Shown here: piece by piece, positions 5,071 through 17,579 of the stretch
How the letters are laid out: every line of letters starts with the position of its first letter
Position numbering within the stretch: position 1 is the first letter of the stretch
DNA from: Chromera velia
Taxonomy: Eukaryota; Sar; Chromeraceae
Reading direction: 5' to 3'
NCBI GenBank assembly: GCA_018398765.1
Contig: JAHBMJ010003231.1
Span: 119,235 to 140,446, forward strand
Length of the DNA stretch: 21,212 nucleotides
Notes under the pieces: generated by a model
The model's database searches: none
Told to the model about the DNA's origin: nothing
Seen by the model: the letters and a program-made list of their open reading frames with translations, nothing else
Made by a program: the position numbers and the translations under genes

Positions 5071-5252
5071 TTATTTTTCAAGGATGAGCCTTTCTCTTTC
5101 ATCCTTGCAGTGTTTCGCATCCAAACTGACTGACTCGCAAGCGTAGCTTGGCCGCAGGGTTCTCTCGTCCATCCGCCCTGTCGGGAAGCACCTCAGGTTC
5201 GTCGCCTTCCTGCTGCATTGCGTGTCTCCAAACTCGGGCTCGCACTCCTTTC
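5071..5252 (-). other. Last exon: EB/EGF-like unit 6 and stop
   Basis: Acceptor CCCCCTGCAG, phase 1 entry, then KECEPEFGDTQCSRKATNLR followed by cysteine (Cys1, Cys2, Cys3), FPTGRMDERTLRPSYAC and DAKHCKDERERLILEK, with TAA at 5071-5073. The TAA overlaps AATAAA, a possible polyadenylation signal, though such signals are poorly conserved in alveolates. An AG|GTGCTT at 5195 sits exactly where the phase 2 intron occurs in the other units; either that intron is absent here or the true exon stops there and later exons were not recognised. Confidence 0.55.
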
Positions 5253-6865
5253 CTGCAGGGGGGGGCATTCATTTTCATACAGGGGGGAATTCAATGAACG
5301 CATGTTCTGTATGAAAATGAATGAATGTCTCCAGGCTCGGGTTCGCTGAGGGGGAATGGGCAAGACGTATTAGGAAATGGAAGAGTCTGCAGGAACAGTA
5401 AACGATCGAAAAGTTGCATGCATGAACCATGCTCTATGCTGGACATTCGACCTTTCTTCTTGTTCATCTGTTGACGATTGTGCTCTGAACGACAATTTGT
5501 GTTGGACTGACTGACCAATGTATGCCAGGCCTCTTCCGAGATCTGCATTGAGTCGGTCAGTCGGTATGAATGCAATACAGTCAGATCCCTAGACATCATG
5601 ATGCAGTCTTGGAGACACAACAAAAGCATGCGAGAATTGAGGTGAAGAGAGAGGGTTACCAAAAGAAAAAAAAAGAGAGAGAGAGAAGAGAATGCATGGA
5701 GAGAGCCAGCTAGTGGCCAAAAAGACTCTCCGAGGCACAAAACAGGCGGCAAGGGGAAGAGCGGCTTTTGCTTCAGCATATGCGTGCGACTTTCTCCTCC
5801 CACCCAGCCCTTCAAGTTTTCTTCCCGGCAAAAAGCGAAAAGAGATAGTCAGATAAATGGACAAAGACAGTAAGTCGAAAGAAAAGCGGACTCACTGAGA
5901 ACATTCTTTTTTAGATTGTGCTTGTCAGTGCGTTGGGACAACTCTGCAAGCAGACACACAAGTAAGTTGCGTACATGGAACGCAACGAGGGGCAGACGTG
6001 CTCATTCTTTCTCAGGCGTTTTCCATGGGAAAAAAAAAAAGACAAAGAACGGACCAGCTGAATAAAGCTTTTGAACGATGGCAAGTCGATGAATTCCCAA
6101 ACGGAGACCCACGGGGATAGTACAAGAGAGTGACAAAGTGATAGTGCACCAGCAGTTTTATCTGTCAGACAGCATAATTCGCGAGAAGGCTGACCTGTAA
6201 TCAGATCTGTAAGAGTCCGCAGGAAAATGGTGGAACAAACAGGACAGAGGAAGCAAAGAGTCAGTGAGAGAGTTTGACATGTATTCAAAAACAAAAACAG
6301 TACAAGTGGCCACAAACTCAAAGACGACGACAACGTCTGGAAGGAATTCAAAGTACAGACAGGTGAACAAGAAAAGATCCCTCTCAATATGCAAGAGCCA
6401 GAACAGCGCGGCATGGCCCCTTTCCTTTTCCTTTTCTTTTCATTGGCATGCCGTCAGAAATTTCTGGAAGGCATGCTCTCTCTTTTCACGTTCAGCGATG
6501 TTGCAAAGAGAGACTATCTTTTGTCAACAAGCTCTAATTGTCTCCATAACCTCCTCGAACTCCCTGTCTGGGTTTAGTCCGTCAAGTTGTGTCTTGCTCG
6601 TGTCGTTCCTGACACCAGGATGGGTGTCTGTTTCAGAAAAAAAAAAAAAAAACGTCTGCCTACGGGGCTCCCTGTTCCGCCTACCGTCTGCAACACAAAA
6701 CGCACAAGTCAGACGAAGAAACATTTGGATGAGTGCTCAAGGCAGAGGCCTCTCACTTAGTACAACGTATGATTTGGCTTTGTGCGAAGAAAAGGGAAGG
6801 AAATGAAGTGCGTAGCGGCGTCGGGCGTCAAAGAAGACAGAGGCGATGCAAAACAAAAATACACA

Positions 6866-6915
<50 letters not shown>

Positions 6916-9900
6916 GACACATCGCACACGCTCACATACATGAGAGAGAGAGAGAGTGAGAGACAGAGAGAAATATACAGACAGGCAGACAGACAGACAG
7001 ACAGAGAAGGAGGGAGTGAGGGAGAGAGAGAAAAGGAGAGAGAGAGAGAGAGAGATAAAACCGCAAAATCCGGGAGAAATGCAGTTGAGACTGACAGTCA
7101 ATGGTCACTCCTTGCTCTGCAAGCAATCGCGAAGAGAAAAAAGCATATTGCAGAAAAACAACCGATCAGCGATACCGCACTGCACACAGCCTTTCTCCAT
7201 TTCGGTTAGCTCAATTCGAAAACTTCGTCAGTAGAATTGACACTTTGTCATGCAGCCACTTGCCTAATCGAAGCGACAGGACTGCTTTGGTGATTTATTC
7301 ATTGAAGAGATAATCCTGCCTCCCTTCTGGCATGCCTCCCTTTGTGTGTCTGCATTTGTCTGCCTGTGTCTGCCCGTACCTCTGGCCATTTCTCCGTACA
7401 CCTGCTTGTTTCCTACCGAAACGCTTGTCTGTTGTTTGTCCAGTCAACTTATCTGATGGCATAGAAAAATGACGAAGAAATGGACGACAGGAGAAGGGCT
7501 TGGGAACATTGGGGGTGGAGAGTGAGGCACCCACCTTTGCAGACTTCCAGCATCGGTTGGTCTCCGTGTGAGATCGCGCCGATGGACCGGTCCATCGTCA
7601 TTCCCTTCATGCACTGGCACCGCTTTCTCTTTGGCAGAGCCAGAGGATGGCTCTCGTCAACTTCCCCGGAGGTCGACCCGTCCTCGAGACACCTACGTGG
7701 GCGTATGCATTTATTTTCATACAGAATTCTTTTTCATACAGAAAATAAATGGAGACACCTACATGGGCGCTGGGGTCAAAGACGTGTGTTGGTGAGTTGC
7801 TACATGAGCAAAGGCAGCATTAATGCGTCTATGTGCTCGTGCAGATTTGTGGGCCGACTTGCATTTGTCTGTGTCTCGTCATAATCTGAGAGGAGAATGG
7901 ACGATGCCTTGCCAGAATATAATGTATTCTGAGATGAACAAATGCATCGGTGAAGAGCGTGTTCATGGAAAAATGTTCACACTGCAGAGATAGTACGTCT
8001 CCATTCAAGTCAGTTGAAGGCTTCAATTTCGAGCTCATCTCAATACACACTTCCCCCCCCCCGATCCTTGTCTCCCAAACATATTGGTGGACGCATTTAT
8101 TAATATTTTCATACAGAAAGAATACACACTGTATGAAAAGAATTCTGTATGAAAATGAATGAGTACACACTTTCCCCCCCGATCCTTGTCTCCCAAACAT
8201 ATTAGAAAATTCACCTGAGAAAGTTCAGGCTTTCCGCACAATCAGAATCGGCTTCGCAAGTGGCGACTGCAACAATGTATAGAGAGAATACATGGTTTCA
8301 GTATTTTGGTTTGTCTCTTTTTTTTGCTTTCAGACATCTGAAACAGGCAGTGGTAAAGGAGGTGACAATCGACGCACGCAACCGCTAAGCAGACAGACGA
8401 GTAATGCCAGTTCAAATTTCGCTGTGTCCTCGAGAGCCTCATGAAAATTTGTTGTGCCATTGTCTCTTTGACTCTTCTTGGATCGCTCCCCCACGACACG
8501 ACAGGCACAGATGGACTCACAAAGATAGCCTCCATGCCTTTCTCTTCCTTCTGTGAGCCTGGATGCCATCGTCTTCTCTTTTTCTCTCGGTGGGCGATGA
8601 GTTAATTCTTTTATGGCTTGTGAGTCGAGTGAGGCCTTTGCTTCCTTACTTATTGTCGACTCATCTGACGGACTCGAAACTTCCCTTCCGCATTGCAGTT
8701 TAGCTGGTGGGAACGGAACGAGCAGTCAGCCTGCCAATGCATTAAGTGACTGACTGACGCACGTACGGACTGACTGACTGACAGTGCTTTGCGTCTGCAG
8801 CACAACAGAGGAAGATCACGCGTGATAATCGAGCAGTTGCTTGAATGTGGGAAAACCCAATAGAAGACTGTTGATGATTCTCAAGCGATGCGATTGAAAC
8901 CAAGTTTGAACAAGACGCCTCAAATCAGAACAGATTCTCGCACACATACGTATACATAGAGGAAACCAAATCCAAAAAAAAGGAGGAAAGAAAGACAGAC
9001 AGAAGAAAAATGCGAGAGGGGGGGAAAGGGGAGGCCGACGTTTCTAAATGACTCCAAATGAGTGGCTTTGAGACGTGCGTTTGTTCATTCACTCGACAAA
9101 TTGGAACTCAAATTTCAGAAATCCAACAAAAATGTTCATCGGTATTTGCGTGCTTTTTCGGCCCACCTCTGCACACCCCGATGGCTTCATCGTTTGCCTT
9201 CGGGTTCTCAGACCCTGAGGCGAGGTCTCGTAAGACAAAGTCATGGCCCTCCGCACACTGGCAGATCCCTCCTCCCAAAGAGAGACGAATGAACCTGTGA
9301 GGAAACGGAAAACATCGAGAAGCAGCACAAGAAAACAAAAGCGAAAGGGTAAGGAGGCGAGATAGACAGTGACAAGTCACTCCCATTCCCCCGCCGTCAA
9401 CCTGCTTCTCGACAATCGAGTTGTTCCGACCGCCTTTGCAGCAGTGGGTCCCCGTCTTCCCTTGCAGTTTCAGTCATCTTTATCCCCCTCAAAGTTTTTG
9501 CCATCCTTCTTCAACGAAGCAACCAACCTACCGTCCGAGACGCCTCATTTTATGACACTCTGCCCAAGCGTCGTGTCTGGTGTCGACACAGTCCGTTGGA
9601 AGGGAACACTCCTCGGGGGAAGAGGCCGGCATCCCTGCATTCACTCATGCACCGTCAGTCAAGTGAAATTGGAATTGAGCAAGAGAGATTCTATTCAGGC
9701 TTGCTACAGACTGAACAGCAAAGTTCGCTTTTTTTGCCGTGGACTCCTTTTGTGTTGCCTCTTCTTGACTCTCTCTCTCTCTCTCTCTCTTCCTTCTCTA
9801 GAACTCCATATTCAAGCGTTGCAATGGCTGACCTGGAAACGGAAGCTGCTTCATTGCGTCTGCATACACAAATTTGAAGACAGGGGGGGGACAGAGACTA

Positions 9901-15222: not shown

Positions 15223-17579
15223 ATGAGAGCCTTTCTGTTGACTGCTCTAACGGCCTTTGCCGCCGGGAAAGCAGCACCTGGCGACGGTGATATTGGAGGA
15301 ACCACCGACACAGAGCAGCTGAAGGCCCTGACTGCCTACCGTCAGTCGATCTCGGATCTCTTCTCGGATCTTTTAATTCGAGAAAGCAGCAATTCGCTGG
15401 CGGCTCCTTCACTGCAGGCACCCAGCACCGTCGGACCATCACTGGACAGCTGTGTGCGGCTGCGTTCGTTCAAGATGGGCAGGTAAGAGATCAATACCTA
15501 TCAATACCTTTCCACCTTTTCCCTGTGGGCAAGTTTGAAGGCGATCAAACGATGCGGCGCTGCTCTTTTCAGATCTACACGGACTGCACCACGGCTGCTG
15601 CGCCCGACGGAAGCTCTGGAAGGGAGTGGTGCTGGCTCGAGGCCCAGCTGCAGGGCAAGGGTGCGCAGGACTGGAACTACTGCACCCCTGTGATCGACTA
15701 CGATGCCGTGAGAAGAAGGACTCGTGAGGCTTTCATTGAGAAGGCTGAGGTCGTGAAGAAGCTCATCACCAAGCTGAATTTGGAGAGCGACCGACTTGAA
15801 GCTGAGAAGAAGATTTTCGAGCGCGTTTGTGGAAAGGAGCACGAAGCCGTCGGAGAGCAGATTCGAAAGGTAGGCAAGTCACCCTCTCGGCTTCATCAAG
15901 CAGGTTGGTAGGCTTGAAGCTCTCTGATGAAATGATATGCTTTGCGCACTCCGCCAGATCGAAGAGCTCGTGACCACGGCAAGCAGGAGTCTCAATCAGA
16001 TCACCAAGCTCGGCGTCAAGATTGACAAAATCAAGGACGAGACCTCCGCTGTGGAGGGTCAGATCTCCGCGGCAAAGACCACTGGCGCCGCAGATGCCGA
16101 GAATTGCTCCAACCTCAGCGGCTACAAAGACGAGGCCATTGCCACCGGTCTCCTCGCCAAGTATTACGACACCGCCTCGTTTGAAGGATCGAGGGTCGAG
16201 AAGAACGACCTGAACGTCAATCTCGATCTCAACGCACAGGATCCGGTCGAGGGGGTCAACCATGCCCAGTACTCTGTGCGTTATGATGGTTTTATCAAGG
16301 CCCCTGTGTCAGGACTCTTCCACTTCGACGTTGAGACTAGTGGAGGTGCTCGGCTCTTTGTCGGGTGGGGTAGATGCTCTAGTCGCCCTCTTTGTCCGCG
16401 GACATACGCTGAGAAGAGAATGGCGTTGCTTCCGAAATTGTGAATTGCAGCCACAAGCCCGTGCTTCACGTCAACATGCCAGCTGGCTCCGAGGCTGAGG
16501 CAGAAGGCGAGAAGCCGATCAAGATGTCCGCCCCGACCGAAACATCGGCCCCTACTGCATCTGGAAGCTCCAGCATGGTCTCAGGGAAGTTCTACCCCTT
16601 CCGCCTTGAAGCATTCCACACCAACCACCTCTCCTTCTACGACAGCGATCACGCCTACTTCCGCCTCTACTGGAGCTCTGAAGACATCGTAAGTGATTGC
16701 TTGCCGAAGACTGCAGCCCCATCACGTCAATCGGATTCTTTTCATTGGCCGCCAATTCGTTCCTTTTCATTGATCACTGCAGGAGAAGACCGTCATCCCT
16801 CCCGAATACTTTTATACGGCCATTCCCGAAGGAGGTTCTCTCGGCTTCATTCAAGAGAACAATGAAAGCCACATTCAGCGCAGCCTCCGCGAAGCCATCC
16901 GAGCGACATGTGATCCCAAGTTTGAGGACTGCACTTCTTCGTCTTTCGATACAGTCGTTTCTTTGACGCCCAAAGATGCCTTCCCCGGGCTCGAGTTCGA
17001 TAATGAGCGCTCCTTTGGATGGGAGCACCCGGTTGAGAGCTCTCTTCTTGTCACCGAGCGTCAGTGACTGAGTCTGTTCCCGTCTGTCTCAGGCGACAAA
17101 GGAAGCTTTCAAAGCGGCATCTTCCTTTGTCCATTGATTGCCTTCTGCATGCAGCCTGGAACGATCTGAACATGGCTTCCCAACAGCATGAGCTCTATGG
17201 TGTTGAAATGCCTCGAGGGAATGCCTTCCAATTGGCCGTGCCTCAGGCCGGCTCCTTCCACGTCGCCGCTGTTCTCGGATTTCCGTGCGGTGCAAAACAG
17301 GACGAAACCAGGGTCATGAACCTCCAGGTCAACGGCGCTGAGCTCATTAACAACCTCCAAGCAAGATGCGGCAGAACATACATTGTCAGTTCGGTTTCAC
17401 GGCTCCTCGACCACTCTAGTTGACGGCACATGGTCAGCTGGTGAAACATGTTCTTCCTTCTTTTTCAGGGTGCCGGCAACGCATCGGTCGATGCATCGAA
17501 GCTTCGTTTGGAATTTTCTGGAGGAAACGAATACTCAAGGACCATGCTCCAAGCAGTTGAGGTGTCTGCAATGAAGTGA
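15223..17579 (+). CDS. Secreted FN2-like, coiled-coil and PA14 domain protein, seven exons
   Basis: Exons: 15223-15482, 15573-15869, 15958-16364, 16451-16688, 16783-17059, 17155-17384, 17469-17579. About 606 residues. Residues 1-18 are a signal peptide (MRAFLLTALTAFAAGKA). Cys77, 92, 107 and 124 with GREWCWLEAQ and QDWNYC form an FN2-like four-cysteine module. Residues about 131-230 are a Lys/Glu/Leu-rich coiled coil. A PA14 domain spans about 250-415 (LLAKYYDTASFEG; GGARLFVGHKPVL; FRLYWSSED). The C-terminal part has further cysteines (CDPKFEDC, GFPCGAK, ARCGRTYI). PA14 is a beta-barrel usually tied to carbohydrate binding. The start was chosen for the signal peptide; the frame is open further upstream. 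Introns 2-6 keep frame with GT-AG sites; intron 1 is off by one base. The family assignment of the whole protein is from motifs, not a search. Confidence 0.85.
15483..15572 (+). other. Intron 1 of the PA14 gene, frame discrepancy
   Basis: The obvious sites are AG|GTAAGA and TTTTCAG|ATC. Joined canonically they leave phase 2 against a phase 0 exon, and the reading meets a TGA about 145 bases later. Removing 89 rather than 90 bases restores the frame and gives MGRIYTDC, but the intron must then be read as GT...CA or TA...AG; the two are indistinguishable because G flanks both ends. A one-base assembly error would explain it equally well. Confidence 0.7.

Follow-up and report, generated by a model that had tools for sequence, protein, structure and literature searches.

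Short inverted half-sites between long direct repeats in the genome of Chromera velia: a family possibly written by templated synthesis at staggered breaks

Interspersed repeats are usually regarded as copies of an ancestor. Miniature inverted-repeat transposable elements (MITEs) and DNA transposons with terminal inverted repeats (TIRs) are short and non-coding, and they combine inverted ends with a target duplication. The repair of DNA breaks offers other precedents. Telomerase inserts interstitial telomeric repeats and TERC fragments at mammalian double-strand breaks (PMC2246262), complementary 3' protrusions at breaks give rise to small tandem duplications (PMC8355091), and polymerase theta makes templated insertions, direct as well as inverted, where 3' tails are AT-rich (PMC2895639), and it extends stem-loops (PMC11292364). 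We analysed 21,212 nucleotides of the Chromera velia genome (assembly GCA_018398765.1, contig JAHBMJ010003231.1, positions 119,235 to 140,446; hereafter the window), in which an initial annotation had described three GAATTC-centred palindromic elements between direct repeats. These elements belong to a genome-wide family whose shared unit is a half-site, X. The reading that fits our observations best, and to which we give an even chance, is that X is written by templated synthesis at staggered breaks, followed by joining of a polymerase theta-like kind. No earlier description of the family was found among the papers listed in searches of the open literature.

The consensus of X, taken from the outer half-sites, is TGCATTTA(T/C)TTTCATACAGAATTCTTTTT. 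Its inner core was set by the search seed, but its fading outward and inward was not, and the C variant comes from separate matches rather than from the outer half-site consensus. The genome searched was a 177.8-Mb assembly of 4,040 contigs, with the window on the 171-kb contig C3135; PF00504, the light-harvesting family, is matched 58 times at exon level in this assembly. The 14-mer ATTTTCATACAGAA occurs there in 321 forward and 321 reverse exact copies and its sister ACTTTCATACAGAA in 368 and 361, giving totals of 642 and 729, whereas each reversed control yielded one copy (1 forward, 0 reverse). The core ATTTTCATACAG, with up to two mismatches allowed, has 9 matches in the window against 2.25 expected, a number that one of 100 shuffles reaches, and the second of the three window elements is supported by an exact 28-mer of X at C3135:126941. 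Some copies run further. X extends to CAGGG at C775:83399, C850:22228 and C933:19449, also in locus L067, and to CAGG only at C502:7757; the longest copies reach GAATTCTTTTTCAGGG, or nearly so, which resembles a pyrimidine tract followed by a 3' splice site (TTCTTTTTCAG|GG). Judged by this extension, the template might be the end of an intron.

The surroundings of X were characterized at 103 independent loci, gathered by the exact 12-mer ATTTTCATACAG with arrays collapsed; this is a non-random sample, drawn mainly from the first-listed X places, and the sister type was left out. A flanking repeat was counted at a local alignment score of at least 30. Such direct repeats flank 87 of the 103 loci, compared with 29 of 611 mismatched pairs of left and right flanks. 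In an earlier set repeats were found in 55 of 66 loci, but in only 13 of 97 shifted windows from these loci and in 14 of 324 mismatched flank pairs, and some matches in the shifted control may be other family members or minisatellites. Copies thus sit mostly between repeats, and a family mostly without flanking duplications, which the initial annotation had named as contrary to its proposal, is contradicted. Removing 34 loci for low score, a very short or long gap, or a half-site core inside the repeat left 69 clean loci; a further 11, arrays or repeats running into the element, were removed to give a strict set of 58. No conclusion changed when the strict set replaced the clean one. Strict repeats measure 42.1 ± 10.8 bp (range 21-67) around elements of 60.5 bp median length, while the clean set gives 43.7 ± 11.7 bp (range 21-78), inflated by some arrays. 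The repeats are, as had been argued from the window, too long for a transposase, and also too variable. The accompanying claim that they are too diverged to be recent fails for the family as a whole: median identity is 95%, and 7 of the 58 strict loci have perfect repeats. The distribution of lengths may be clipped at its top, because the published short-read assembly (193.66 Mb in 5,953 scaffolds, with much low-complexity DNA; PMC4501334) was built with k-mers of 71, which could collapse longer perfect repeats.

Tandem arrays of repeat plus element occur at no fewer than 13 of the 103 loci. Regular arrays of 5-8 units, spaced by 68-113 bp, are seen at C90:37491-38062, C306:30386-30769, C343:61201-61690 and C709:6017-6519, and are apparent births of minisatellites. 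By eye, L032 (C126) and L034 (C146) seem to be one insertion on two contigs in opposite orientation, a likeness from which it follows that the assembly may contain duplicated or allelic contigs.

An insert-free site was predicted for 62 loci, and 28 of these sites were searched for in the genome. An uninterrupted paralogous or allelic copy was recovered for three of them. C320 lacks both L133 and L134, which lie on C678, and its gene has a protein kinase match (PF07714, E 1.2e-8); C3313 lacks L007. At all three uninterrupted sites the repeat stands only once. The duplication and these sites are seen directly, as is the family itself. Flanks duplicated in the absence of an element, the other arrangement that the initial annotation had named as contrary to its proposal, were not encountered at the three informative sites. 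Taken with the 87 of 103 loci, the three single-copy sites support the view that the repeats are target duplications formed together with the insert. For L024, partial matches on C1825 and C3172 did not cover the left side, and the other 24 sites matched only themselves.

What do the elements have in common besides their flanks? When 87 elements were compared all against all, mosaics of X were the most that any pair had in common. The common part is the outer ~29 nt; each element has a centre of its own, a mosaic made up of stretches of X and of its complement, and beyond ~34 nt no common sequence was found in the elements compared. In elements of more than 60 bp, 7-mers from X or from its complement cover 62% of the middle part (748 bases altogether), but only 12% once the sequence is shuffled, so that the insert consists of neighbouring sequence copied in both direct and inverted orientation, as is characteristic of templated end joining by polymerase theta. 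Direct re-starts of X within 20 bases were counted at 37 places, arrays included. Some interiors between half-sites are microsatellites, (CA)n/(GA)n, (ATGT)n or (GTAT)n, as in L005 (1220-1550), L144 and L153; slippage may begin at the joining step.

These centres bear on the notion, put forward from the window, that a GAATTC-centred palindrome is the mobile unit. A MITE-like palindrome copied as a unit and then scrambled by hairpin-driven mutation would account for the inverted ends, the many copies and the AT-rich composition (25% GC in the elements, 50% in the flanks), yet the data already contradict it and we find it scarcely credible. Scrambling does not rise with repeat divergence: the correlation of repeat identity with end quality is 0.001 for the worse and 0.07 for the better end in the 58 strict loci, and -0.0005 and 0.03, respectively, in the 69 clean ones. 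Centres are equally scrambled beside perfect and diverged repeats, and at the seven non-array loci with perfect repeats all of them differ. Because scrambling has no relation to repeat identity and these seven centres are all different, it seems to have been present from the start. Moreover, the 87 elements have no common interiors beyond the X mosaics, their ends are imprecise, and the perfect core is very rare. As a founder, the palindrome was rejected: when one mismatch is allowed, the perfect window-type core is found at seven places, and just one of these copies is exact. A perfect core of the sister type lies on C818 (not all letters shown). The palindrome is a rare outcome, not the ancestor. 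In being short and non-coding, with inverted ends and a target duplication, X elements are like MITEs and TIR transposons, but they differ in their long, variable duplication, their imprecise ends and their lack of a common interior. Since the members share only an end word and appear to have been created scrambled, the evidence favours templated writing at breaks over copying.

The junctions between target and X are likewise variable. Of 84 readable junctions in the strict set, 16 have X starting at TGCATTTA and 33 have it starting further in. Native target supplies the missing X letters at 16 of the 33 inward starts; for one letter or more this equals expectation (16 against 16.3), but four or more missing letters are supplied at 6 junctions against 0.31 expected, or at 5 if L132, which adjoins a second element copy, is set aside. 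X starts truncated without native supply at 17 of the 84 junctions (19 of 87 in an earlier count). Microhomology of at least 2 nt is present at 30 of 66 junctions, compared with 7.9 for shuffled target ends and a maximum of 16 in 500 shuffles, and a first count had given 32 of 68 against 9.0; the boundary rule itself favours some microhomology, and the evidence therefore lies in the excess, not in the raw count. Native TGCA adjoins 8 of the 84 junctions, against 1.7% of positions in the interior of repeats (38 of 2,188), and no clear consensus for a cut site was found beyond this TGCA microhomology. The largest deviation, A at 41% just past the junction, was dismissed as a target signal as it is expected from the way the boundary was set. 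A cutting transposase is expected to start at one letter. The sharing of ends only, the scrambled centres, the variable starts of X and the microhomology together disfavour a TIR transposon or MITE with precise ends.

The two ends of an element mostly agree with one another. In the 25 elements whose variants are readable at both ends, the first variable position is equal in 24 (p 0.0004) and all three compared positions are equal in 22. A genome-wide pattern search found two close inverted half-sites at 93 places, and in a hand-collapsed subset of 21 loci, those with letters shown, both ends carry the same variant at 18 (shuffled 11.6, p 0.00025). This agreement suggests that one template molecule served both ends, or that one end was copied from the other. 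It would be natural for terminal inverted repeats, and the chief rival to templated writing is that the elements are excision scars of a TIR DNA transposon, X being the flank tails left by the transposase and joined by polymerase theta with templated filler, and the repeats being target duplications. Such scars would explain the centres too, and the theta footprints of P elements have the same layout of duplication, tail, direct or inverted AT-rich filler, tail and duplication (PMC2895639). P-element duplications, however, are fixed at 8 bp and the 3' tails at 17 nt (PMC2895639), where the X family has duplications of 21-67 bp and tails that do not start at a fixed base. Nor was an intact element found in a non-exhaustive search, in which one distant inverted pair was tested; this pair, on C1386 and spanning 2.87 kb, proved to be a couple of small elements that are separately flanked by repeats. 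We regard excision as unlikely.

Based on these observations, we return to templated writing and propose the following sequence of events. Each locus would be the scar of one insertion at a break cut ~20-70 nt apart (mean 42) on the two strands, which would leave 3' single-stranded ends. The same short template would then be copied onto both 3' ends, laying down X from the outside inward on each side, perhaps with pairing between the target end and the opening letters of the template (TGCA). A template RNA would be expected to contain the complement of X, in RNA sense ...AAAAAGAATTCTGTATGAAA(A/G)TAAATGCA, ending in AAATGCA-3'. Slipping, self-priming end joining of the polymerase theta type would connect the tails through a unique centre assembled from stretches of X and of its complement, while fill-in of the overhangs would create the target duplication. 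Staggered cuts, 3' tailing, joining and fill-in would in this way jointly explain the duplication, the inverted word, the variable starts and the unique centres. What we infer is the geometry of the 3' overhangs, the template as such and its nature (possibly RNA), and the enzymes; the variable starts with their microhomology, the centres scrambled regardless of repeat identity and the mostly equal end variants are direct observations. Of the mechanisms offered in the initial annotation, staggered breaks combined with template switching form the best-fitting class. Family-A DNA polymerases have matches on three contigs, the subtype theta not being assigned.

Several points weigh against this proposal. 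Sixteen of the 103 loci fall under the repeat threshold; they include the first window element and others with short or imperfect repeats, as well as L005, whose long repeat, seen by eye, lies beyond the scanned span, but five of them (L048, L060, L066, L079 and L080) have no acceptable repeat. One end is poor in ~40% of elements whose repeats are at least 97% identical, and the variant pattern can be read at both ends of only 25 of the 87 elements. Precise deletion between the repeats could in principle also yield an uninterrupted copy at any single site. Equal variants at both ends are not expected if each end draws independently from a mixed pool of templates. Neither a template RNA gene nor a tailing enzyme was found, and no reverse transcriptase was seen near X when 150 of 1,759 candidates were scored and compared by eye with 100 + 100 listed X places.

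This last result touches a further explanation, abortive twin-primed retrotransposition, according to which a longer RNA, akin to that of a long interspersed nuclear element (LINE) or a Penelope element, has X as its 3' end and is reverse transcribed over a short distance from both nicks. Target-primed reverse transcription would fit the long duplications of variable length, the microhomology as a site of priming and the truncation of X inward, and the CAGGG extension of X in some elements is in keeping with a longer RNA. A variable-length target duplication is indeed a likeness to retroposons of the LINE and short interspersed nuclear element (SINE) types. Their single constant 3' end with a tail, opposite a variable 5' end, is absent, however: X is inverted at both sides in many elements, and a minority have one poor end. 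The elements compared have nothing in common beyond ~34 nt, there are centres in which X re-starts instead of being extended, and, within the partial lists, no scored reverse transcriptase match is near a listed X site. Twin priming too appears improbable to us.

How does templated writing at breaks compare with the described systems? Like telomerase-written repeats, the X family would place a fixed template word in breaks across the genome, with microhomology between target end and word, and the TERC 5' and 3' domains, which may lie in opposite orientation, are comparable to inverted X (PMC2246262). Target duplication accompanies telomerase inserts at 6 of 130 rodent and 4 of 25 primate loci in that report (PMC2246262), whereas it is the rule here; X is also not a typical telomere repeat, and its tails stand on both sides. 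In the duplications that arise from 3' protrusions, overhangs are filled in and duplicated as we propose here, 43 bp being the smallest tested, but the part of that report drawn on describes no common inserted word (PMC8355091).

The repeats are also enriched in splice motifs. TGCAGG is found in 18 of 58 strict repeats against 6.4% (p 3e-8) and in 20 of 69 clean ones, and AGGT in 26 of 58 against 20.4% (p 5e-5) and in 28 of 69 against 22.3%, though AGGT was weak in the first, smaller set (19 of 55 against 21%). A crude 3' splice-site pattern is present in 15 of 69 clean repeats against 8.9%. The TGCA microhomology at junctions may account for some of the excess of TGCAGG; in 14 of 58 repeats, however, TGCAGG lies clear of the two outermost bases at either end, and matches are spread along whole repeats. 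The excess could reflect either survival of harmless insertions or a preference for such sites, and some insertions may be removed by splicing. The repeat of L133 starts with the CAG that belongs to a 3' splice site and duplicates this site, and the exon would be spared because the second repeat copy can act as the 3' splice site. L134 lies inside the kinase exon and its repeat holds AAG|GT, so that it could be spliced out.

These motifs invite comparison with introners, inserts that spread or are kept as introns with splice sites taken from the duplicated target. Introners of Amoebophrya, an alveolate, and of other algae also consist of inverted repeats between direct repeats that may hold splice sites (PMC7789003, PMC9860276), and published families include some with both splice sites drawn from the target (PMC9860276). 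Their direct repeats, however, have 3-5 nt in Amoebophrya and, in families cited by a survey, 3-9 bp, against 21-67 bp here, and introners are grouped by a common intron sequence, whereas X elements share ends only (PMC7789003, PMC9860276). AGGT is absent from 32 of the 58 repeats. Near-identical copies at many intron positions were not met with, the 87 centres being unique, and the openness of the reading frame across joined flanks is at background (45 of 69 against 61.5%), which is uninformative. Spread as introners is in our judgement very unlikely.

What would templated writing imply for the genome? If it is true, the family is a natural large-scale record of break repair, preserving stagger length, use of microhomology and the joining of tails, and the target duplications date each insertion event. 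A template would also be able to spread a wider range of sequences through a genome, and because a repeat of ~42 bp is long enough to hold an entire splice site, there would be a concrete route to intron growth and gain in an alveolate. In its fullest form the idea invokes a telomerase-like, template-carrying enzyme that tails both ends of a staggered break with one fixed word, so that the family is written afresh at each site and never from another copy, while the long duplications let inserts land harmlessly on splice sites and can create introns and minisatellite arrays. We advance this fuller version tentatively and lean somewhat against it.

All three elements described in the initial annotation are present in the window, each between direct repeats. 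Element 1 (5266-5325) has the half-site with a TTCA variant at both ends, inverted, around a scrambled centre, and its repeat copies at 5223-5243 and 5326-5346 are identical at 18 of 21 positions. Between the left copy and X lie 22 bases (5244-5265), ending in a run of G and absent on the right, which may be native sequence with an indel or a non-templated addition. Element 2 (7704-7751) consists of X, a re-start of X after GAATTC and an inverted X end, between repeats at 7686-7703 and 7752-7769 (17/18 identical). Element 3 (8086-8163) comprises X, a mosaic of X pieces in both orientations and an inverted X end; its repeats at 8044-8085 and 8164-8203 match at 39 of 42 positions with one gap. 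Each element folds better than 200 of 200 dinucleotide shuffles, with z-scores of -6.64, -4.29 and -4.39 for elements 1, 2 and 3. The motif GAGAC/GTCTC does occur in all three flanks, as had been pointed out, but its enrichment in the family is unclear and compatible with chance: it was rejected as a target motif, being present in 14 of the 69 clean repeats as against 14.1% of control windows, and in 12 of the 58 strict ones as against 13.7% (p 0.13). Rfam at gathering thresholds gave no match in the window. Among eight open reading frames (ORFs) of the window compared with Pfam, one match exceeded the cut-off, a PA14 domain (E 7.3e-7) in the ORF at 15937-16443, which is probably part of a multi-exon gene.

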